Shown piece after piece: positions 6,710 to 44,299 of a stretch of 64,000 nucleotides of DNA (positions within the stretch are counted from its first letter, which is position 1; each line of letters begins with the position of its first letter). Source of the DNA: Phaeodactylibacter xiamenensis (lineage in GTDB: Bacteria > Bacteroidota > Bacteroidia > Chitinophagales > Saprospiraceae); contig NZ_JPOS01000035.1 in NCBI RefSeq assembly GCF_000759025.1, positions 124,001-188,000 on the forward strand. The letters run 5' to 3'. The position numbers were made by a program, and so were the translations under genes. Below the pieces are notes generated by a model, which saw nothing but the letters and a program-made list of their open reading frames with translations, did not search any database and was not told the DNA's origin.

Positions 6710-7834
6710 TTACCCCAAAAGAGGGGTGGCTAGCCCGTTTGGCGGCCCAATTGCAGGGACATAGGCTTTGAGCCTTTGCACCTCTTGAAAAGCCGCCCTG
6801 AGGGCATTGACATAAATTTTGGTTTTTAGGGCAAAGTGGTTGGTCTGCTCTTTTGCAGACAGCAGTTCGAGTTTAGTCCAGGCAATCATGGCAGCAAAAA
6901 CATGGTTGCACTGGGATGTCTCGTGCTTGGTGGGGGACTTTTCCAGCCCCACGTTTTGTTTGAGCGATTTGTGGAATACCTCCACTCCCCAGCGTGTCCC
7001 GTAGGTTGTGCAGATAGCTGGGCCGCTTAGCTCCAGATCGTTGGTGACCAGGTACAAGTCTCCAGTTGAGCCGTCTTGGTTTATAAAGACCTGTTTGACC
7101 AGCTGGACTTGGAAGTCCAGCCCTTTAAGGTAAACAGTAATGGCCTGGCCTGCTTGCAGTTCTAGCCCGTCGACTCGGTGGAACTTGCCTTCCAGTTTGT
7201 CTTCCATGGTAAGGGCAGCCTTGCGGTTGCTCTTTAAGGCACTGATAAAATGCTTGCCCAGCTCATAGTGCACGAACTCAAAGTTCTCCTTGGCAGCAAA
7301 CCAAGTGTCCCAGACCACATAGCGGAAGGGCACGCGGTTGTATTTGACAAGTGCAAAAAGCTGGTCGCGCAGCATCTCGTTCTTGCTGCGGGGGCTGCGC
7401 TTCTTTACCTGCCCGCTTTTGGTATCCACGTATTCTTGCGACTTGCGCACGATCTCAAAAGCAACAGGCAGCTCTATGCCCTGTGGGCTCTGGTAAAGGA
7501 AATTCAGGATGTTGATCCCTTTGGTGTGCCCCGCTTTCGGCTTCTTGGAGTGGTCCCAGTGCCAAGTGACCACTTCATTCTCCGTAGAGTGCGGCTTCTC
7601 CTCGATCGTGTCATCTATCTTGATGACCGCGTCCGGGTGCTCCACTTTACGTACCAAAGGCTTTATGCAACGCCAATAGTCCTTTGCCGTGAAGGCTTCC
7701 TGCCCTAAAAAACGGCTGATCTTGTCATGGCTCAGTGCCTGATCGGTCAGCTCGGACAAGCCGGTGGCTGTCGCCATGCGAAACGATGCCAGCAGGTAGT
7801 CCGAATACAAGTCTAGTAACTTTGGGTCTTTCAT
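6710..7834 (-). CDS. IS4/IS701-type DDE transposase
   Basis: A transposase of 374 residues from the ATG at 7834, which has a strong Shine-Dalgarno sequence (AAAGGAG) seven bases upstream. An upstream in-frame ATG at 7873 would add 13 residues and lacks this. The DDE residues are visible as IKIDDTIEEKP (first Asp), VVWDTWFAAKENF (second Asp) and YGTRWGVEVFHKSLK (Glu). The last block fits the IS4 signature Y-2-R-3-E-6-K exactly. The frame is uninterrupted and the C-terminus is Pro/Gly-rich (PAIGPPNGLATPLLG). It inserts and excises the surrounding element. Family placement between IS4 and IS701 is uncertain. Confidence 0.93.
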   Translation of the reverse strand: MKDPKLLDLYSDYLLASFRMATATGLSELTDQALSHDKISRFLGQEAFTAKDYWRCIKPLVRKVEHPDAVIKIDDTIEEKPHSTENEVVTWHWDHSKKPKAGHTKGINILNFLYQSPQGIELPVAFEIVRKSQEYVDTKSGQVKKRSPRSKNEMLRDQLFALVKYNRVPFRYVVWDTWFAAKENFEFVHYELGKHFISALKSNRKAALTMEDKLEGKFHRVDGLELQAGQAITVYLKGLDFQVQLVKQVFINQDGSTGDLYLVTNDLELSGPAICTTYGTRWGVEVFHKSLKQNVGLEKSPTKHETSQCNHVFAAMIAWTKLELLSAKEQTNHFALKTKIYVNALRAAFQEVQRLKAYVPAIGPPNGLATPLLG

Positions 7835-10618: not shown

Positions 10619-10990
10619 TTATTCTTCTTCAAGTTTGCCCATCAGGTCGTTGAGCTCCCGCAGGCTGAGGTCTTCCTCCTGCACCAGAAAGGAAACGAGG
10701 CGGTTCATGGAGCCTCCGAAGTAATCTTGCACGAGGGTGCGCACGGACTGCCGGCTGTATTCGTCCTTGGTGACTTTGGGCTCGTACACGAAGGTCCGGC
10801 CATAAGCGGTGTGTTTCAGGAAGTCTTTCTTGTCGTCCAGTATGCGGACCATCGTTGACACGGTGCTGTGGGGTGGCTTTTCCAGCCCCATTTCTTCCAC
10901 CATGTAGTTGCGGATGTCGCTCACCGTGCAAGGTGCAATCTCCCAGATAATCTGCATGATCTCTTCTTCCGCTTTCGTTAGTTTATTCAT
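10619..10990 (-). CDS. BlaI/MecI/CopY-family transcriptional repressor
   Basis: A 123-residue winged-helix repressor. The N-terminal region (MNKLTKAEEEIMQIIWEI, then SDIRNYM and a recognition stretch PPHSTVSTMVRILDDKKDFL) matches the BlaI DNA-binding domain. The C-terminal half (about 85-123) would be the dimerisation and cleavage region. It is the middle gene of a TPR - BlaI - M56 operon with gaps of 6 and 11 bases. It probably represses its own operon through the dyads at 12192-12239 until the M56 partner senses a signal. Confidence 0.94.
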   Translation of the reverse strand: MNKLTKAEEEIMQIIWEIAPCTVSDIRNYMVEEMGLEKPPHSTVSTMVRILDDKKDFLKHTAYGRTFVYEPKVTKDEYSRQSVRTLVQDYFGGSMNRLVSFLVQEEDLSLRELNDLMGKLEEE

Positions 10991-10996
10991 TATGCG

Positions 10997-12160
10997 TTAC
11001 TGTTGAAAGTGTATGATTTCTTTTAATTGCCCGATGCGCTGCTCGGTATAGGCCTGGAACTCCTTATGACCGGTGCCGAGGTAGTCCTGATAGTGGCGCA
11101 GCGCTATACTTTTGTCTTTGAAGTACTGATCGGAAGCCCGTGCCAGGAAAAAATGCGTTTCCACGGGGGCGCCGTAGGAAATAGCGGAGCGGTAGTGGTC
11201 AATAGCGGTACGCAAGTCCCCTTGTTGTTCTGCAAGGTTGCCCAGGTCATTGAAATAGGTCCCTATTTTAGGTGAAATCCCTTTGTCAATGGCTTGCTCA
11301 AAATGAGCCTGACTCTGTTCCATATTACCCAGTTTCCGGTGAACCAGCCCCAGATAGTGGTGCGTATGTTCGGTGTCTTCCTCCCGGTCCACGATTGCCT
11401 GCAAATGTGCGAGCGAAAGCTCCAGACTATCGATGTGCAGATAAGCTACGCCGAGCATCATCTGGTAATATTCGCTGGTATCGCCCTGCACCATAATGCT
11501 TTCAATGGTGGCCGCCACGAGCTCATGGGCTTTTTGTTTGTGGTGCAACCGGGCTTTTGCCTGCAGGAGGGGGATGTTCCGGGCATCCAGTTGTAGCCCT
11601 TTTTCTATCATTTCGGCTGCAAAGCCAAGCTCATCCATAGCCAGGTAAATAGTGGACAGCCGGGTGATGACTTCCGTATCTGCAGGATTCAAGCTGTGAG
11701 CTTTGATAAACTGTTGGAGCGAGTGGATCGCATCCCCCTGATGCAAGGCAATATTCGCTGATTTTTTGTAGTAATAGCTATTGGTGCTGTCAATTTGCGT
11801 AAGCTGGGTAAAGTAGGATTGTGCTTTTCTGTAGTTCCGCTCCCGCTCGTAGATACTGCCCAGAGCACTTAGAGCAGTGGTATGCAGGCTGTCGAGTTTC
11901 AGCACCTCACCATAAAACAGTTTGGCGTCCGGATAGCGGCCAAGCTGTGTGTGGCAATATCCGATCCGGAGCAGATAGGGAATGTGCCCGGGCCGCCTGA
12001 TGTAGCAGGTGCTCAGTTGCTGGAGTGCGCCGTCAAAGTCGTAAGCGGCGATCCGGCGTTCCGCTTCTGCAAAGTATTGCTCCAGCTGAAGGCTGTCCTC
12101 CACTTGTGCAGTCCCAAAGATTGGGAAGAGTAAAATGGCTAAAAATGCTAATAGCTTCAT
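10997..12160 (-). CDS. Secreted TPR-repeat protein, first gene of the BlaI-BlaR1-like operon
   Basis: A 387-residue protein with a signal peptide (MKLLAFLAILLFPIFGTAQ) and TPR-like helical pairs from about residue 30 to 375, for example YAEAERRIAAYDFDGALQQL-type and HTTALSALGSIYERERNYRK-type motifs. It is predicted to be periplasmic, where it could contact the periplasmic tail of the M56 protein encoded downstream; that is inference from the operon and localisation only. The gene starts 26 bases downstream of a TAGATTTG promoter element on the minus strand and ends 6 bases before BlaI. TPR proteins have no enzymatic activity of their own. Confidence 0.88.
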   Translation of the reverse strand: MKLLAFLAILLFPIFGTAQVEDSLQLEQYFAEAERRIAAYDFDGALQQLSTCYIRRPGHIPYLLRIGYCHTQLGRYPDAKLFYGEVLKLDSLHTTALSALGSIYERERNYRKAQSYFTQLTQIDSTNSYYYKKSANIALHQGDAIHSLQQFIKAHSLNPADTEVITRLSTIYLAMDELGFAAEMIEKGLQLDARNIPLLQAKARLHHKQKAHELVAATIESIMVQGDTSEYYQMMLGVAYLHIDSLELSLAHLQAIVDREEDTEHTHHYLGLVHRKLGNMEQSQAHFEQAIDKGISPKIGTYFNDLGNLAEQQGDLRTAIDHYRSAISYGAPVETHFFLARASDQYFKDKSIALRHYQDYLGTGHKEFQAYTEQRIGQLKEIIHFQQ

Positions 12161-12185
12161 GGTATACTTACACTTCTATGGTATA

Positions 12186-12239
12186 CAAATCTATAACGTA
12201 TTTTTTAGTTATAAAAGCTTTTAACTAATTTTTTAGTTA
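12186..12239 (-). promoter_or_regulatory. Promoter with two dyads, probable BlaI operator of the TPR-BlaI-M56 operon
   Basis: On the minus strand, TAGATTTG (complement of 12186-12193) fits the Bacteroidota -7 element TAnnTTTG, with TTTT 19 bases upstream in the -33 position. Two inverted repeats overlie and precede it: TATAAC-N10-GTTATA (12192-12213), filling the spacer between the two boxes, and TAACTAA-TTTT-TTAGTTA (12222-12239). They share a 17-bp direct repeat ATTTTTTAGTTATAAAA (12200-12216 and 12228-12244). Repressor binding here would block polymerase. Assignment to BlaI is inferred from operon autoregulation in the family. Confidence 0.65.
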
Positions 12240-12244
12240 TAAAA

Positions 12245-12442
12245 CGTATTTTACCGTTGTAGATGAGCGAAAAGTATTTTTTGGTGGGAAGGCTGCTTAT
12301 TTTTTGGAAAAAGAATTAATTTTAGAGCAATAAGCAGAGTTGGACAACACTTTAGATAAACATAACACTCACCCAGGTTGGCGTATACAGCGCCACGGAA
12401 CAGTCGGCGACCCATTTTGTCTCATGAAAACCCTCCGCTATC
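12245..12442. other. Remainder of the intergenic region before the WecA-like gene
   Basis: This AT-rich stretch separates the leftward operon from the rightward WecA-like gene. It should hold that gene's promoter, but I see no clear TAnnTTTG element on the plus strand. The short open frames crossing it are not convincing. Confidence 0.5.
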
Positions 12443-13510
12443 ATGTTTATCTTGTTGCTTTGTTTTCTTACCGCATTTGCGATGGCCTATCTGGCTATCC
12501 CGTACATCATTAAGATCGCCCGGGACCGTAATCTTTGCGAGGTACCGGGGGAGCGTAGTTCGCATACCATCAGTACGCCTGCTCTGGGAGGTATTGGTAT
12601 TTTCTGTGGTACGATTTTTTCGGTATTGATGTGGACACCGTTTCAAAACTTTGCCAACTTACAGTATATACTCTGTGCCTTGCTGTTGATGTTTTTGGTT
12701 GGCCTTAAGGATGACCTTGCTCCCATTCTGCCTCAGACTAAATTTGCTGCACAGTTTTTCGCAGCGCTGATCATTGTTTTGCAGGGCAGTATTTATCTGG
12801 AAGGCTGCTACGGGCTCTTTGGGGTGCATGATATTTTGCATGTGAATGTTTTTCGTGCACTGACCATAATTGTGTTTATGCTTATCATCAATGGGTTCAA
12901 CCTGATCGACGGTATCAACGGGCTGGCTGGTAGTCTCGGGACCCTGGCTGCCGGTATGCTGGGGGGCTGGTTTTTCTGGGTCGGGCGTATCGAGCTATCC
13001 ATTTTGTCTTTTGCGATGGTTGGTGCCTGTGTGGCTTTTCTCAAATTTAATTATACGCCCGCCAAAACCTTCATGGGCGATTCCGGGTCCCTTGTCATTG
13101 GCATGACCTGTTCGATTTTGATCACTTCCTTTATTGAGGTCAATTACCAACTGCCTGGTGGTAATCCCTACAAAATAAATAATGGGCCTGTTTTTGCAAT
13201 TAGTGTAGCGATTCTGCCGGTTTTTGATACGGTGCGTGTTTTTCTGACCCGCATTGCCCGCGGGCAGTCTCCTTTTGCGCCCGACCGCCGTCACATTCAC
13301 CATTTGCTCGTTGATTTTGGCTTTAGCCACACGATGACCACGGCTATTCTCACCGGCGTCAGCATTCTTTTCATTACCTTGGTGGTGGTGCTGGACGGAC
13401 TGCTGGGGCTTCATGCACTGCTATTGTTAATCATCAGCCTGGCAAGTGCACTGACGTATTACCTGCACTGGGCCGTAGGGCGCTATCGGGCAAAAAAAAT
13501 GGTATTCTAG
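12443..13510 (+). CDS. WecA/MraY-family polyprenyl-phosphate sugar-1-phosphate transferase
   Basis: A 355-residue integral membrane enzyme with about ten transmembrane helices. It transfers a sugar-1-phosphate from UDP-sugar to undecaprenyl phosphate, the first step of a lipid-linked glycan. Family motifs are GLKDD (about 87-91), NLIDGINGLAG (about 152-162), FMGDSGSL (about 210-217) and the cytoplasmic loop APDRRHIHHLL (about 277-287), which favours WecA/TagO-type over MraY. It faces a polysaccharide export and polymerisation operon 1.3 kb away on the other strand and could supply its lipid-linked precursor. The sugar specificity is not readable. A fluoride channel gene follows after 4 bases. 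Confidence 0.93.
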   Translation: MFILLLCFLTAFAMAYLAIPYIIKIARDRNLCEVPGERSSHTISTPALGGIGIFCGTIFSVLMWTPFQNFANLQYILCALLLMFLVGLKDDLAPILPQTKFAAQFFAALIIVLQGSIYLEGCYGLFGVHDILHVNVFRALTIIVFMLIINGFNLIDGINGLAGSLGTLAAGMLGGWFFWVGRIELSILSFAMVGACVAFLKFNYTPAKTFMGDSGSLVIGMTCSILITSFIEVNYQLPGGNPYKINNGPVFAISVAILPVFDTVRVFLTRIARGQSPFAPDRRHIHHLLVDFGFSHTMTTAILTGVSILFITLVVVLDGLLGLHALLLLIISLASALTYYLHWAVGRYRAKKMVF

Positions 13511-38183: not shown

Positions 38184-38870
38184 TTACTCCTCGTAAGGAA
38201 TGGTGCGTATCAAGTCGACAGGCTCTATGACTTCATCAGCCAAATAGGATAAAGTGCCACCTGAAGCATTTCCCATAAATTCTATTCTCCCTTTGATTGT
38301 ATCTGGATGAACCATTAACCCTTTATATATCATTCTGGTATATCCTGCTATGTTACCGTCTTCTGTCCAATCTCTACAAACAGATTCCCCTAACTCTCCT
38401 CTTGTTGGCTGCAAAAGATGTATATGAATCTCTTTCAAGCTATCGGGCGTCATTGGGGGGATATATAGTACTTGTCTGGTAAGACTATACTCTGCATCGT
38501 CTGGGATTTCGGAGACTAAAGAAGTACCTGTAGGTACCCCGACTTCATTAGGAGAAGCCGTCCATGGCTCCTCCACAAAAGTCAGCCCAAAAGTATCTAT
38601 GCATACAAACGGCTCTACATAAGCGACAAAGGTCTTAGATGACGGCATAATGCAGAATTTCCGGGCTTCAAGTTCATTGCTTATAAAAGAAGTCCTTAAT
38701 TCCAGCCAGGTTTCAATGCTTTCTTCCGGGCAATCGCATTCTGCGTCCGCACAGATCATATCTCTGTCCCAACATCTTGGGCAATCGGGGGTGACTGGTA
38801 CTTCATCTTTGCAGCCAGTAAAGGCTAGCAATAATGAGGAAAAAGTGAATATGATGAAGTTATATTTCAT
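38184..38870 (-). CDS. Cys-rich hypothetical lipoprotein
   Basis: A 228-residue lipoprotein with signal and lipobox MKYNFIIFTFSSLLLAFTGC (Cys20). Just after the anchor is a dense Cys stretch (CPRCWDRDMICADAECDCPE), possibly disulphide-bonded or metal-binding; the rest is beta-rich with few cysteines. I recognise no family. It lies in the AT-rich accessory stretch between the BrnT module and a MITE-like element. Confidence 0.75.
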   Translation of the reverse strand: MKYNFIIFTFSSLLLAFTGCKDEVPVTPDCPRCWDRDMICADAECDCPEESIETWLELRTSFISNELEARKFCIMPSSKTFVAYVEPFVCIDTFGLTFVEEPWTASPNEVGVPTGTSLVSEIPDDAEYSLTRQVLYIPPMTPDSLKEIHIHLLQPTRGELGESVCRDWTEDGNIAGYTRMIYKGLMVHPDTIKGRIEFMGNASGGTLSYLADEVIEPVDLIRTIPYEE

Positions 38871-38923
38871 CGCAAGAATATTTTCTCGTTAGACAATGTA
38901 CCGTCTGATTCGACGATGTTTAC

Positions 38924-39092
38924 TATATATAGTTCTCCAAGGCGAGATTAATGCATTTTGACTTGCTCTTTTTTCCGCTCGCTGCGTTGAAAAGCCTCGC
39001 CGTCCGTACGGATGCCTGCGTTTTTCGCCTTGCGAGCGAAAAAAATACCTGCGTCAACTTTGCACAAGTCCTGCCTTGGAGAACTATATATA
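38924..39092. repeat. MITE-like element 1 (169 bp), perfect 20-bp inverted ends
   Basis: TATATATAGTTCTCCAAGGC (38924-38943) is the exact reverse complement of 39073-39092. The interior is itself partly self-complementary (TTTTTTCCGCTCGC on the left, GCGAGCGAAAAAAA on the right, centre CCGTACGG), so the whole element can fold into one long hairpin. It has no coding capacity. Its internal motif GCCTTG-(A-rich)-CGTC recurs in the elements at 40753 and 41143. Confidence 0.85.
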
Positions 39093-39392
39093 AGCCTTAT
39101 TTTTAGATAAATGAATAAAATATTCCTAATTTTTAGAACTGGGCTTGTTTTTAATTGTCATAATAATGACTGTTGCCTTAGCAATTTTTCAATTAAATAA
39201 TAGATTCCCGCTATTTAGGGCTTGATGGTAGCGTATTTGCTTTGAATACCAAGGAGTTTTGGTTCTGACTAAGTCTTTTTTGGCGTGTCAAATAATACGA
39301 CGATAGAGCCCGCCCCGCATTTCTTCGGAGTTCATAAACTCCTGATTTGCAATAGGCGCAAGCACCAAACAAGCTCTCAAATCTCTTTGTAT
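39093..39392. other. AT-rich non-coding leader of the HTH gene
   Basis: Three hundred AT-rich bases; the frames crossing them have no family features. It should contain the promoter of the HTH gene at 39393, but no full TTTG-N19-TAnnTTTG match was found. Confidence 0.5.
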
Positions 39393-40295
39393 ATGAAAAA
39401 ACAACACTACCCCAACCAAAGAAAGCTATTTGAGCTACTCGAAAAACTATATTCTCTTCAGAATAAGCATTTTCCAAAACACTATATGGAAAGCGCAGGT
39501 CTTTCGAAAACCCCAGTTTACTACCGTGTCAATGGTAGGTCATCCATTACCTTTGACGAGGGTTGCAGGTTGCTTTCCAGTCACAATATTTCAATGGACC
39601 ATGGTTACATTAATTCCGACACGGACAGCAGCCTAAAATTATTGGAAGAAATATTTCAACACATTGAAAAGGATGATGAAATAGAGATGACCATAATATG
39701 CTCTTCACTACCACCATTCTTATTCCATACTAAACCACTACAGGCATTCGAGCAATATTTTCAGCAGCTCACGCTTAAAAATACATCACTGGAACAAGTA
39801 CCGTTTACAAGCTTTAGCTTTGATGCCAGCCATTTCGACCTGCTCGGTTCGCCTGCAATCTCAAGTGCAAAAAAGACCTTAGTACTCCCTCTTCAATTAT
39901 TTGAAAAAGTCGTCCACAAAATCCATCATGTAGATGCACTAGGGCTTTTTCAAAACCAAAACATCAAAAAGCGATTGCTTAATTCGCTACTAAGTGCAGT
40001 GAAAGAACTAAAGAACTACATCACTCACTCAAAGCATCAAGTGGTAGCCTTTGAAAATCCTTATTTTGAATTGAGCAATCTCATACTTATCCAAACCCAA
40101 TCATTAGGGCTCGCATATACCTGGTCTGACATGATGAGCAAGGTTTATCTTTTGACCGATGATGACAGTAACAATATTAAGCGATCTTTTATGACTATAA
40201 CACCTCACTTGCATAACATCTTTCCCTACAATAGCAAGGGGTTCAGACGGTATTTTGAAACTCAAAAAAACCGCTTAGAAGCGTGGCAAACCTGA
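39393..40295 (+). CDS. HTH-containing putative transcriptional regulator
   Basis: A 300-residue cytosolic protein. An N-terminal helix-turn-helix is suggested at about 20-65 by YMESAGLSKTPVYYRVNGRS and SITFDEGCRLLSSHNISMD, the pattern of Bacteroidota proteins with a degenerate XRE/BetR-like HTH. The C-terminal 220 residues are helical with no motif I know. Base composition is more AT-rich than the housekeeping genes in the window, suggesting transfer. ATG 39393 is chosen; the frame opens earlier at 39285 without an HTH-relevant extension. It is flanked by MITE-like elements. Confidence 0.7.
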   Translation: MKKQHYPNQRKLFELLEKLYSLQNKHFPKHYMESAGLSKTPVYYRVNGRSSITFDEGCRLLSSHNISMDHGYINSDTDSSLKLLEEIFQHIEKDDEIEMTIICSSLPPFLFHTKPLQAFEQYFQQLTLKNTSLEQVPFTSFSFDASHFDLLGSPAISSAKKTLVLPLQLFEKVVHKIHHVDALGLFQNQNIKKRLLNSLLSAVKELKNYITHSKHQVVAFENPYFELSNLILIQTQSLGLAYTWSDMMSKVYLLTDDDSNNIKRSFMTITPHLHNIFPYNSKGFRRYFETQKNRLEAWQT

Positions 40296-40387
40296 AATAC
40301 GAGCTTGTTTGGAGCAGTTTTTCAATGTCCATGGCGCTAAAAAGACAGGTTGGCCTTCATTCTATCGTAGAGGAGAAGTGGTTAGAA

Positions 40388-40738
40388 TCACCCCTTCGGA
40401 TACGGGCAATGCCGGCACCCGCTCCCACAGCAGTACCCCCGCTTGAGGTGAGACCAGCTCGTCATCACGAACATCCCGTTTTCCATATAGTAATCGATGC
40501 CCTCTACAGGCCTGCCGGGCCTTTTGTAATCTGGTGCAGTATTGTACCTTTTGCCGGCTTTGAAGTCCGCCACAAACTGCTCAATTTGCTCCTGTACCTG
40601 CGCTTTGAGGCAGGCAGGGCAAAGGCAGCGTGCTGCTTCGATGGGCGCAATAGCGGGCAGCTTATGGCACCAGCAAGCAGCGGCGTTTTCCACCTGGCAG
40701 TCAAAGACAGAATTACAATTTGGGCAGGTCTGTTTCAC
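40388..40738 (-). CDS. Cysteine-rich CWC / DUF5522 zinc-ribbon-like protein
   Basis: A 116-residue protein combining an N-terminal cysteine-rich CWC domain (CPNCNSVFDC, ACWCHKLP, CLCPACLK, about 4-45) and a C-terminal DUF5522 domain (about 70-116: GIDYYMENGMFVMTSWSHLK, CCGSGCRHCPYPKG). The Cys pairs are metal-ligand-like. In many Bacteroidota these two are neighbouring genes or fused; the function is unknown. A MITE-like element starts 14 bases beyond its start codon. Confidence 0.88.
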   Translation of the reverse strand: MKQTCPNCNSVFDCQVENAAACWCHKLPAIAPIEAARCLCPACLKAQVQEQIEQFVADFKAGKRYNTAPDYKRPGRPVEGIDYYMENGMFVMTSWSHLKRGYCCGSGCRHCPYPKG

Positions 40739-40752
40739 GGTTTTGGTTTTTT

Positions 40753-40922
40753 AGGGGTCGCGAAACAATAACTTACCTATTTTGACTCGTTTTTTTGCAC
40801 GCTAACTGCGTTAATCCCGGTTACACCGGGACACCGTAGCCCCACTATGGTTACGTTTTTTGCCTTGTTATCGCACAAAATAACTTCGTCTATTCTAGGC
40901 AACTTATTGTTGCGCGACCCCT
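40753..40922. repeat. MITE-like element 2 (170 bp)
   Basis: AGGGGTCGCGAAACAATAAC (from 40753) is mirrored by the sequence ending at 40922 (TTATTGTTGCGCGACCCCT), with one mismatch and one variable end. The interior has TTTTGACT, TTTTTT, CTGCGTT and GCCTTG in the same order as element 1. Confidence 0.8.
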
Positions 40923-41142
40923 TACGCGTCAAAGCTACCTACTTTTTACTAATTCTCATTCATACTGCAAGCGTGCGCGCGCATATCAAAGTGCACTACT
41001 TGAATAGCCTGGCAGCATTCGTGGATGAGCTGGAGCAGAGCGGGAAGCTCTACCCCAGCAACCATCGCAAATGGATAGGAAAGTTTGATTCAGAGCCAAC
41101 CGTGGACAGTTATGGCTACCGGCGTTTCGACAGCCATAGCCG

Positions 41143-41309
41143 CTTAGACTATGTTGGGATTTCACCCTTTGGGCTGTATTTGCCAAATTTCATCCTGCAC
41201 TTCGTTGCTCTTCAGTCGCTTAGCTTTGGCTAGGCTCCTTCATCGCGCCTTGTTCAGAATAAAATTTGACTGCATTCGCTCCAAAAGCGAATTCCCAACA
41301 TAGTCTTAG
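41143..41309. repeat. MITE-like element 3 (167 bp)
   Basis: CTTAGACTATGTTGGGATTTC-type arm (41143-41163) is mirrored at 41289-41309 with 19 of 21 matches. The interior has GCCTTG followed by AATAAAATTTGACTGC, comparable to the right half of elements 1 and 2. Confidence 0.75.
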
Positions 41310-41530
41310 ACACACAGCTACTTGGGGCGAAAGTGAAATTCGCCAATTCGTTCGCCACGGCATTGATACTCGAAGTTCACTTCGTGTGGCCCGTAGAGCT
41401 GCAGTATTACTTTCTGTTTTGTACCCAATTGTTATGGCACAAAGCGTGCCGTGAGGTACGCAATGCAGGTAACCCAGCGACCAGGCCGGGAGTCCGTGCC
41501 GTAGGTACGGAATGTACCGCCCATGACTCC

Positions 41531-44299
41531 CTACTTCTTTTTACCAAAGTGCCGGATATTGTACGTAAAGTTCAGCATCACATACCGCTGCAGTACCTCC
41601 GTTTGCACATCCTCAATAAACACATCTGTGACATTCCGGCTGATGCTGTTGTTTTGCCCCAGGAGATCAAAAACGCTGAGGCTGATTTCAGCCTTGTCGT
41701 CCAGGAATTTTTTGCCCGCCTCCGCATTCCACAGCCAGAAATTTTGGTTGAAGCCCTCCGACAGCCCGTCAAACAGCTGATGGTTCACGCTGCTGCGTAC
41801 TACCCAGCCGTTACCGATCAGGAAGTTAGCCCCTAGCCGGGTGGACTGATTGAGGAAGTTGTTGTCAAGGGCCGTATTCAGGCTGTTGCGCACCCGGTTG
41901 TAGCTGGTCTGGGAAGACAGCGTAAAGTCCACCCGTTCGCTGATATTGCTGCTCAGGGTGGCATTGAGGGAAGAGCCGATATTGTTGGCGTAGTTCAGGT
42001 TGTCATTGATGAGGCCCGGAATCCGCTGAAAGGTACCTCCAACGCTAAAGTTGAGGTTAGATTTGATGGCCGAAAGCGGAAAGCCATAGGTGGTAAAAGC
42101 CCGGGCATTCCAATAACCATCGAGGTTGACCGGTTGCCGGAGTTGTGCGCCCCGCTGCAGGAAGATACCGGGCCGGATCAGCAAGTCGCGATCTGCAGTG
42201 AAGGTACTGTTGCCGATGTAGTGCTGCGTGTACTGCGCGGAAAGCAACACGTAAAACACCGAAGCCTTGTCGGTATTCGTCCTGGAATAGCGGGCAAATA
42301 CCCGGTGGGTATAGTCCTGCCTGAGGTCCGCATTACCGGTAGACAGTTGGAGCGGGTTGCTGTTATCGATCACCTCTTGCAGTTGGCGGAGAGAAGGTGG
42401 TGCCGTCCGCCCAAAGTAACCGGCTCTCAGGTTGGCATCCTTGGAAAACTGGTAACGCATAAAGAGCCGCGGCAGGAAGTTAAAAAAGCGCCGGTCGATA
42501 GCTTCAGGAGCCGGAAAAACCTGATCGCCGCTCAACTGTGCCCACTGCGCCACAATCCGCCCATTGAAAATCAGCTCCTTATCACGGAACCGCAGCCCTA
42601 CGCTGCCCTCCTGTGTCCGGTAGGTAGTCTCAAAGGTATTGGACAGCAGCGGGTTGAGGTCAGAAAATTCACCATCTGCTGCCCGGTCAAAGGTTTCCTG
42701 ATTGCCATCGGTGTTTTGCTGGCTGGCTTCGGCGCCCAATTGCAGCTGAGCCTTCTCGCCAAGGGGGTCGCTGTAGCGGATACCCGCACTGTGTGTCCAC
42801 CCCGTTTCGTTCAGCCCGGCAAACTGATCAAGGTTTTCGGTGAAGGCAGAGTCTTGCAGGAAGCGGTTCTCAGAAGCCAGGAAACGCTCGCCATCCTGCT
42901 GATTGTAGTTGGTACCGACATTGAGGGAGACGGTCCGGCCCCGTTTAGCAAACCGGTGGCGGTAGTTGAGGTCATTTGAAAAACTCAGGGCGTTTAGATC
43001 CGTCTGCAGGCCAAAGTCGGTGCTGCTGAGCAGCAGGTTTTGCAGCCGGGTTTGCCCTAAGGTTTGTTCCTGCCCTTCACTTTGCTGCAAGCTGAGGCGG
43101 GGGCGTATACTGATGGTGTTTTTAGGGTCGATTTCATATTCTATCTGTGCGTTCAGCCGGTGGTTGATGGTCCGGGTATCCGCCAGGTTGTCCTCGCTGT
43201 AGGTTTGCCCCAGCAGGCGGTCGCTTAGGAAATCCTGGAAAATAGACGACCGTGCGTTGTTATCGGTTTGATTGAAAAAGTAGCTGGCGTTGGTTTCCAC
43301 TTTGTCGCCCCATTTGTCGGCATAGTTCAGCCCAAAGGCGTGAGTAGTGGCAATGCCGTTCTGGGTATTCACCAGGAAATCGCTGGGGTCGGTGCCTCCG
43401 CCTCCGCCCCGCCGGCCTCTCCCCCTGCCGCGCTGACTGCCCGAGCTGCCGAAAAGGCCCGAGAGGTCTTCTCCGGCAAAATTTTGCTGATTGATGTTGT
43501 TGGTCTGCCCGATGATGGACAGTCGGGCGTCGCCTTTGAAGATGTTGACGTTGCCCCCGGCCCGGTATAGGCCTTCTTCGCCAATGCCTGCATAGAGCTT
43601 CCCAAACTCCCCTTGCCGCTTGCCGGGCTTGGTGATGATGTTGATGGCTTTGGTGGTCTCCCCGCTGTTGAATCCGCTAAACCGGTCCTGCTCGCTCTGC
43701 TGGTCAAAAACCTGGATTTTGTCGATCACCTCAGCTGGCAGATTGCGGAGAGCTGCACTGGGGTCATCGCCAAAGAAAGGCTTGCCATCCACGAGGACCT
43801 GCCTGATCTCCTCGCCCTGTGCCTGTGCCTTGCCATTCTCAAACAGCACCCCCGGCATTTTGCGGATGAGGTCCTCGGCGCTGGCATCAGGATTGACCTT
43901 GTAGGCGTTGGAGCTGTACTGCGTGGTATCGCCGGATTGGGTGGCGAGGGGGGCTTTGCCCGTGATTTCCACCTCGTCCAGATTGAGGGCGATTTGGGTA
44001 ATTTGCAGTACCCCCAGGTCAAAGTCTTCCTGAAGTTCAATGGTATCCGAGTAGCTCTGGTAGCCTACGTAGGTGACCGAAAGGGCGTAGGTGCCCGGCT
44101 GCAGGCCGCTGAATTGGAATTTCCCTTTTGAATTGCTGGTCTCACTGAACTCTTTCGTGCCATCGGTGAGGTATACATACGCCCCTTCAAGCGGCGCCTG
44201 TTCCGTTGAATCGTAAACCATGCCGGTGAGGGAGAGCTGTTGGGCAAAGGCGTGCGCCAGGGGCAACAGCAGAAGAAGCAAGCTGCTTAGGATTTTCAT
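41531..44299 (-). CDS. Outer-membrane TonB-dependent receptor-like protein (OMP_b-brl_3)
   Basis: A 922-residue outer-membrane protein with a signal peptide (MKILSSLLLLLLPLAHAFAQ), a carboxypeptidase-regulatory-like domain (about 22-105), a plug-like region (EDLIRKMPGVLFENGKAQAQ, then VLVDGKPFFGDDPSAALRNL) and a large barrel (outer membrane beta-barrel family 3) to the C-terminus. A Gly/Arg-rich insertion (GSSGSQRGRGRGRRGGGGG) lies at about 290. It is stand-alone on the minus strand. The substrate is unknown. Confidence 0.88.
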   Translation of the reverse strand: MKILSSLLLLLLPLAHAFAQQLSLTGMVYDSTEQAPLEGAYVYLTDGTKEFSETSNSKGKFQFSGLQPGTYALSVTYVGYQSYSDTIELQEDFDLGVLQITQIALNLDEVEITGKAPLATQSGDTTQYSSNAYKVNPDASAEDLIRKMPGVLFENGKAQAQGEEIRQVLVDGKPFFGDDPSAALRNLPAEVIDKIQVFDQQSEQDRFSGFNSGETTKAINIITKPGKRQGEFGKLYAGIGEEGLYRAGGNVNIFKGDARLSIIGQTNNINQQNFAGEDLSGLFGSSGSQRGRGRGRRGGGGGTDPSDFLVNTQNGIATTHAFGLNYADKWGDKVETNASYFFNQTDNNARSSIFQDFLSDRLLGQTYSEDNLADTRTINHRLNAQIEYEIDPKNTISIRPRLSLQQSEGQEQTLGQTRLQNLLLSSTDFGLQTDLNALSFSNDLNYRHRFAKRGRTVSLNVGTNYNQQDGERFLASENRFLQDSAFTENLDQFAGLNETGWTHSAGIRYSDPLGEKAQLQLGAEASQQNTDGNQETFDRAADGEFSDLNPLLSNTFETTYRTQEGSVGLRFRDKELIFNGRIVAQWAQLSGDQVFPAPEAIDRRFFNFLPRLFMRYQFSKDANLRAGYFGRTAPPSLRQLQEVIDNSNPLQLSTGNADLRQDYTHRVFARYSRTNTDKASVFYVLLSAQYTQHYIGNSTFTADRDLLIRPGIFLQRGAQLRQPVNLDGYWNARAFTTYGFPLSAIKSNLNFSVGGTFQRIPGLINDNLNYANNIGSSLNATLSSNISERVDFTLSSQTSYNRVRNSLNTALDNNFLNQSTRLGANFLIGNGWVVRSSVNHQLFDGLSEGFNQNFWLWNAEAGKKFLDDKAEISLSVFDLLGQNNSISRNVTDVFIEDVQTEVLQRYVMLNFTYNIRHFGKKK

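Follow-up and report, generated by a model that had tools for sequence, protein, structure and literature searches.

Known short mobile elements

The origin of bacterial MITEs is usually told as the internal deletion of one parent insertion sequence (IS). Other small palindromes provide further points of comparison: REP and REPIN elements, with RAYT, are palindromes with mismatches; the GC clusters of yeast mitochondria and the RHE of sponges are mobile hairpins of organelle genomes. The elements described here resemble REP/REPIN in being mismatched palindromes, and differ in having DDE-type duplications and no Y1 link in the stretches near three Y1 genes; they resemble the GC clusters and RHE in being mobile hairpins, and differ from these organelle elements in having DDE-type terminal inverted repeats (TIRs) and target duplications.

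The closest described systems are MITEs proper. Correia/NEMIS, ERIC and RUP, as PMC2229807 describes them, are 100–200 bp long, carry no large gene, and have TIRs, a terminal TA, a target duplication and a long stem-loop; the TIRs of RUP resemble those of IS630-Spn1. MITECca01 of Cardinium (about 240 bp) has ends like those of a resident element, ISCca4 of the IS982 family, and internal deletion of a parent IS is argued for it (PMC9769881). The elements of this locus agree with bacterial MITEs generally, as the former source presents them (PMC2229807), in size, TIRs, TA ends, target duplication and long stem-loop; with MITECca01 in being Bacteroidota MITEs, in one family (that of L046) with resident-IS ends (PMC9769881); and with BrickBuilt of Porphyromonas gingivalis in being Bacteroidota MITEs with a distinctive interior (PMC4596501). 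The differences are of organization. Families in PMC2229807 each have their own ends, whereas here one folded core occurs with about 19–26 end types at near-constant length; MITECca01 keeps short parent-IS sequence beside its ends (PMC9769881), whereas L046, the relevant element here, keeps only an 18-bp TIR and words in common at chance level; the BrickBuilt interior is a 23-nt minisatellite (PMC4596501), whereas here it is a covarying hairpin core. No description of one core common to different end types was found in the literature searched, part of the published record outside subscription journals and ISfinder.

Three MITEs in one window

The window (the whole 64-kb stretch of DNA that was analysed) belongs to a host genome of 7.87 Mb in 164 contigs. 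By the TonB-type protein encoded nearby, its closest records are a metagenome bin at 95% identity (L055) and Phaeodactylibacter luteus (Bacteroidota, Saprospirales) at 60%, from which a relative of Phaeodactylibacter is inferred as the host. An initial annotation had placed three elements, E1 at 38924–39092, E2 at 40753–40922 and E3 at 41143–41309, with lengths of 169, 170 and 167 bp, all of which is correct; the terminal inverted repeats it described are also there, the outer arms being complementary at 20 of 20 (E1), 20 of 22 (E2) and 19 of 21 (E3) positions. The limits hold as placed, but the mobile units, listed on the plus strand, are slightly shorter: a 157-bp body for E1 (38930–39086) with TA at 38928–38929 and 39087–39088; a 168-bp body for E2 (40754–40921) with TTA at 40751–40753 and 40922–40924; and a 159-bp body for E3 (41147–41305) with TTA at 41144–41146 and 41306–41308.

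The annotation had named a lack of other copies in the genome as its refutation; this is not the case, E1 having 12 copies and E3 15 two-ended ones among those examined. The E1 TIR is TATAGTTCTCC, and TA flanks both sides in 12 of 12 copies, a flank that may belong to the element end instead of to a target duplication. Ten copies are 94–100% identical; the other two stand at only 81% because of a longer tip. Genome-wide, the 16-bp end of E1 occurs at 28 sites with at most two mismatches, 24 of them the paired ends of the 12 copies. The E3 TIR is GACTRTGTTGGGA, with TTA/TAA as the target duplication: identical TTA or TAA stands on both sides in 11 of the 15 two-ended copies. The E3 body is 159 bp in 11 copies and 186–187 bp in four, the longer ones having an inserted mini-hairpin. 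A second copy of E2 was not found in its own genome; relatives over all 170 bp occur in two other genomes (84% and 76% identity), and some E2 match occurs in 5 of 59 genomes, its own included.

For E2 the site is found empty in L055, which reads ...GGTTTTGGTTTT directly followed by ACGCGTC..., against ...GGTTTTGGTTTTTTA, then E2, then TTACGCGTC... in the window; the comparison is that of a TTA duplication, save for two extra T in a T-run. The arms too are missing from this empty site, and insertion of a core into a pre-existing palindrome is accordingly rejected. Empty sites for E1 and E3 were not found in L055, where the E3 region differs and the place of E1 is taken by a different stretch of 2.2 kb (positions 10900–13166).

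The three elements are thus short, non-coding, multi-copy (E2 being single here) and bounded by family-conserved TIRs and a target duplication; an ORF of more than 150 aa encloses 5 of the 126 core loci. Mechanistically, all three count as non-autonomous DDE-type MITEs, and there is good evidence that DDE transposases move them through their TIRs. The first proposal of a single family of three does not hold: each element belongs to a transposing family of its own, and the ends differ between E1, E2 and E3 but remain conserved among the E1 copies and among the E3 copies. No special meaning was found for their clustering within 2.4 kb, and further copies are spread over many contigs.

A structured core of two related types

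By local alignment, the claim of a shared interior holds for one pair and fails for two. E1 and E2 align far above chance (score 34 against 16.2 ± 2.5, a level that none of 1000 dinucleotide shuffles reached); E1–E3 (17.0 against 17.2) and E2–E3 (16.0 against 15.7) are at chance level. Structure models extend the comparison. Model R1 was built from 18 elements, E1 included, E2 and E3 excluded; its sister model R2 was built with E3; the E-values of both are rough. Over the 64-kb window the top three places of R1, on one strand, are E1 (122.5 bits, core at 38948–39066, E1 being within the model's alignment), E2 (53.4 bits, E 2.8e-9, core at 40772–40901, E2 being outside the model) and E3 (17.3 bits, E 0.3); as the fourth place, the opposite strand of E1, scores 15.8 bits (E 0.67), the match to E3 is weak by itself. 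R2, trained on E3, gives 118.1 bits for its core at 41176–41276. The two models detect each other's elements weakly (R2 on an E1 copy, E 0.0045; R1 on a type B element, E 0.016), and three loci outside both training sets (L369, L376 and L378) are matched by both alike; type A and type B cores are therefore taken as related.

Type A comprises E1, most other elements, and E2, which has an extra mini-hairpin. On the model strand the first half runs GACTTG, 16 nt, CTGCGTT, 5 nt, GCCTCG, tip hairpin; after the tip follow CTACGTT, 5 nt, GCCTTG, 16 nt, CTGCGTC. As the alignment reads, the 5-nt pieces, the 16-nt pieces and the tip pair across the hairpin and vary in pairs between families; GMCTYG and CTKCGTY oppose each other at three points, in orientations that alternate, and form conserved loops that are mostly unpaired, RNAalifold putting a few single pairs within them. 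In the 18-sequence alignment A1, 92.7% of cells are paired, against 78.9% when shuffled, and pairing falls to 42–53% when the partner is slid by 1–3 columns; covariation is 0.371 against 0.137, with both sides changed in 19 of 30 pairs.

Type B is represented by alignment A2 (E3 and relatives, 10 sequences), with 94.4% of cells paired against 84.9% and covariation of 0.289 against 0.117, on a structure taken from RNAalifold with one pair (36-67) added after the sequences were seen. In both alignments 0 of 500 shuffles covaried as highly, and one of five measures, that of pair types, lies within the shuffle range (A1 9/500, A2 46/500); such counts overstate significance, the sequences being related. 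Invariant or nearly invariant TC/TC mismatches of type B (columns 34-35/68-69, 37-38/65-66 and 41-42/61-62) alternate with covarying pairs, and are tandem G.A steps on the opposite strand. The mini-hairpin of E2 differs by paired changes in the relative L316 (a reading of the alignment, from L316 alone).

Many ends at near-constant length

Element ends were measured by arm complementarity at 102 loci, of which 75 passed the filter; the 27 dropped, E2 among them, had a weak or no core, an unusual tip or an insertion. Length is 159–169 bp in 66 of the 75. Single linkage at 75% or more over 16 nt, offsets allowed, a threshold reached by 1 in 3000 random pairs, yields 19 end groups, two of which hold both core types; another grouping rule yields 26, at least two being boundary-offset duplicates (L136, L239). 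Core identity exceeds 0.75 in 52 of 325 pairs of representatives, whose ends have a mean identity of 0.46 and a maximum of 0.65, the random value being 0.40. Inside the TIR, arms match their own partner at 0.66 and arms of different families at 0.42 (26 and 650 comparisons), a comparison biased towards own-arm pairing in that arm ends were chosen by complementarity; left arms compared between families give 0.46 inside the TIR and 0.38 over the outermost 20 nt (random, 0.36 and 0.35). E3 and L046 have an 85-bp core in common at 85% identity, and BLAST finds no match between them in the 41 bp that lie outside it at each end.

A check independent of the core gave a like result. Inverted repeats with exact 13-bp seeds, nested ones removed, were sought in 1.59 Mb of the own genome: 36 elements of 90–300 bp were found. 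Of these, 17 measure 160–173 bp, and the core is present in 15 of the 17, under six end types. A search for E3-type ends in seven genomes found 84 own-genome sites, against 24 in the reversed-pattern control.

E3-like ends occur in other settings as well. In one genome (G004) the end AGACTATGTTTGGA occurs also with a quite different interior: at six loci (L251, L252, L254, L260, L261 and L264) it bounds a second hairpin chassis, type C, with none to two inserts of about 30 bp. Short core-less sequences of about 50–70 bp with E3-like ends on both sides lie at about 1600–1680 of L282 and about 2400–2460 of L280. In the window itself, 39216–39389 is probably a fourth MITE, overlooked by the initial annotation, with ends AGGGCTTGATGGTAGCG / AGAGCTTGTTTGGTGC and an interior that, by eye, resembles type C of G004 (GTTCTGRCTAARTCTTTTTT).

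The tip is exchangeable. The 12 E1 copies are 0–2 nt apart in the compared body, yet have three tips (8, 2 and 2 copies; 39002–39012 in the window, plus strand); in a sister genome three E1 copies (1–3 differences) have two of E1's tips, one slightly changed. Tips also recur under other ends: TCCGTACGG in L045 and L049, and the long E1 tip in L014. Elements of the E3 type and those with AGAGCTTGTT ends both contain a mini-hairpin around CCGACGATGAATGTCGGG, which L014 has at another position. Hairpin tips are swapped between near-identical copies.

Distribution

Match counts for R1 and R2 (59 related genomes and the phylum sample) are lower bounds. R1 matches 27 of the 59, its own included: 26 of the 36 in the own family, 1 of 2 in a second family and none of the order's remaining 21; the matches sum to at least 497 over the 27 genomes, and R2 also matches 27 of 59. 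An evenly drawn sample of 296 genomes across the phylum gave 8 with a match at E ≤1e-5: five from the own family (one, G040, through a locus that showed no arms), two from a different family within the class, and one from outside the class. In other orders, and in one other class, the core is rare. In the three out-of-family genomes the best matches fold as long hairpins with the GTAGCT..GGCTA kind of tip; in one of them (G159) the weaker matches are less alike.

Where the ends come from

One end type has an exact match. The 18-bp end CTAGCAGCCTGTCGGAGA is identical to the TIR of L171, a 1658-bp element of the same genome that encodes a 453-aa transposase with DUF772 and DDE_Tnp_1 and that we take to be IS1182-like; two 167-bp MITEs, L046 and L047, have these 18 bp at both ends. 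Beyond the TIR, L046 and L171 have only 8–12-bp words in common, at chance level, and the interior of L046 is for this reason rejected as a deleted remnant of L171. A transposase with matching ends, suggested as a check by the initial annotation, is thus found for this sister family and for none of E1, E2 and E3 in the stretches searched. The four E1 end sites remaining of the 28 have two mismatches each, lie on four contigs and form no pair; no partner IS for E1, E2 or E3 appeared in the inverted-repeat scan (1.59 of 7.87 Mb); and a search for nine ends at 30 of the 65 DDE_Tnp_1 places, a scan of 250 loci for 103 ends and inspection by eye of the TIRs at 15 transposase places yielded no second end match. 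One end type alone is tied to an autonomous element, and the failure to find partners of E1, E2 and E3 weakens the general claim of end capture. Elsewhere in the window, 6878–7342 is a DDE_Tnp_1 match to a 389-aa transposase family with 12 matches in the genome.

Target duplications bear on the same question. In L043 an element nested in an E3 copy is flanked by CTAG on both sides, and intact E3 copies have one CTAG; the flanks are probably a CTAG duplication, or TA within CTAG. The nested element (1320–1540 of L043) is a hairpin MITE with TGGTCTGTCAAG ends that splits the E3 copy at the CTAG in its tip; it has 7 copies in the 1.59-Mb sample. With TA, TTA/TAA and probably CTAG duplications all seen, several duplication types therefore occur on one chassis.

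How the clan may have arisen

The favoured way to understand these elements, and to our mind a rather probable one, is as non-autonomous DDE MITEs of a single hairpin clan of about 160 bp, in which the core is kept, the ends vary, and ends and core have the following roles. DDE transposases would act in trans on the TIRs, duplicating TA (E1) or TTA/TAA (E2, E3); ends would be gained by recombination or template switching with the ends of resident ISs; a gained end would be copied onto the other arm by fold-back repair, so that the arms stay complementary; tips would be exchanged by template switching; the core would work in folded form, as single-stranded or extruded DNA, and probably serve as a recognition site that helps copying whichever transposase cuts the ends. 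Together, end capture, fold-back copying and tip exchange would account for outer arms that pair perfectly, for a length that hardly varies and for the swapping of tips. On this view the chassis would be modular, its structured core, probably in the form of folded DNA, being carried by ends taken from different insertion sequences. A stronger form, in which a portable, strand-specifically folded core, with its repeated mismatched loops in alternating orientation, captures unrelated IS ends, spreads by means of the transposases of one IS family after another, recopies its arms and swaps its tips, as a satellite that changes helpers, is a real possibility that falls somewhat short of probable.

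Different ends would also result if a single old family diverged slowly while its ends changed fast. This account supposes a very old MITE lineage in which the ends track the transposase and change fast and the middle changes slowly, with no exchange of modules and a functionless core. Substitution easily explains the graded series of ends TATAGTTCTCC / TATAGTCTGACAACCC / TAAAGTCCGCCAACCC and the pair AGGAATGG.. / AGGGCCCGG.., each then AATAA; arm length is almost constant, and the end identity of like-core families is slightly above random (0.46 against 0.40). However, a functionless middle should not evolve more slowly than the ends: conservation of the core needs selection or repeated exchange. 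The differing duplications point to different transposases, and both the exact 18-bp end in common with the IS1182-like element and the swapped tips in otherwise near-identical bodies tell against plain substitution. We regard this account as unlikely, though the most serious of the rivals.

Another account takes the core for a structured RNA gene or RNA regulator, carried by the MITEs as cargo; the initial annotation, too, had suggested an RNA-like element. Covarying stems and invariant internal loops would suit an RNA. So would the mismatches: on the model strand, the arms of 26 representatives show pyrimidine-pyrimidine mismatches 150 times and purine-purine ones 31 times, with A.C at 99 and G.T at 51 (37 against 20 and 49 against 16 in the outer arms only), families that are not independent in this respect because most of the pyrimidine excess sits in the shared inner arms. 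Opposite-strand mismatches are then mostly purine-purine, with three tandem G.A steps in type B, which stabilize DNA as well as RNA; the strand bias, rejected as proof of RNA, is kept as a hint only. Gene orientation lends the idea no overall support. With genes taken as mechanical ORFs, the 126 loci comprise 33 and 32 tandem in the two senses, 30 convergent, 20 divergent and 11 with one side unknown; own-genome loci do lean to one orientation (17 against 8 of 48), which a purely DNA-level role does not predict, and type B loci lean 14 against 7. Rfam gave one match at E up to 1 in window 38500–41600, at 40238–40291 (E 0.18), off all elements. With no overall orientation preference and no Rfam family, an RNA element acting in transcripts is rejected, and RNA cargo as a whole is improbable; the lack of overall orientation relative to neighbouring genes weakly favours folded DNA over RNA. 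Least credible, to the point of being very improbable, are REP/REPIN-like elements moved by a hairpin-recognizing Y1 (TnpA_REP/RAYT) transposase: the hairpins are palindromic and mismatched and the genome has 3 Y1_Tnp matches, but TIRs and target duplications fit DDE transposition, and R1 finds no core in the stretches around the three own-genome Y1 genes, so a Y1 origin is rejected.

Implications

E1, E2 and E3 are three MITEs by mechanism and one unusual clan by design. What the initial annotation observed is confirmed, and its interpretation is partly supported: it was right about MITE-like elements with a common interior layout, different ends and compensating arms, unusual for one MITE family, and wrong or too strong in making the three a single family. 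A conserved core over about 19–26 end types, one of which equals exactly the end of an IS with little else in common, would show another route to MITEs, that of a satellite swapping helpers. Covarying stems with invariant loops make a concrete candidate for a binding site or a folded-DNA function in elements presumed to be junk; and the R1 matches over 27 genomes are a large natural data set on hairpin repair and template switching.
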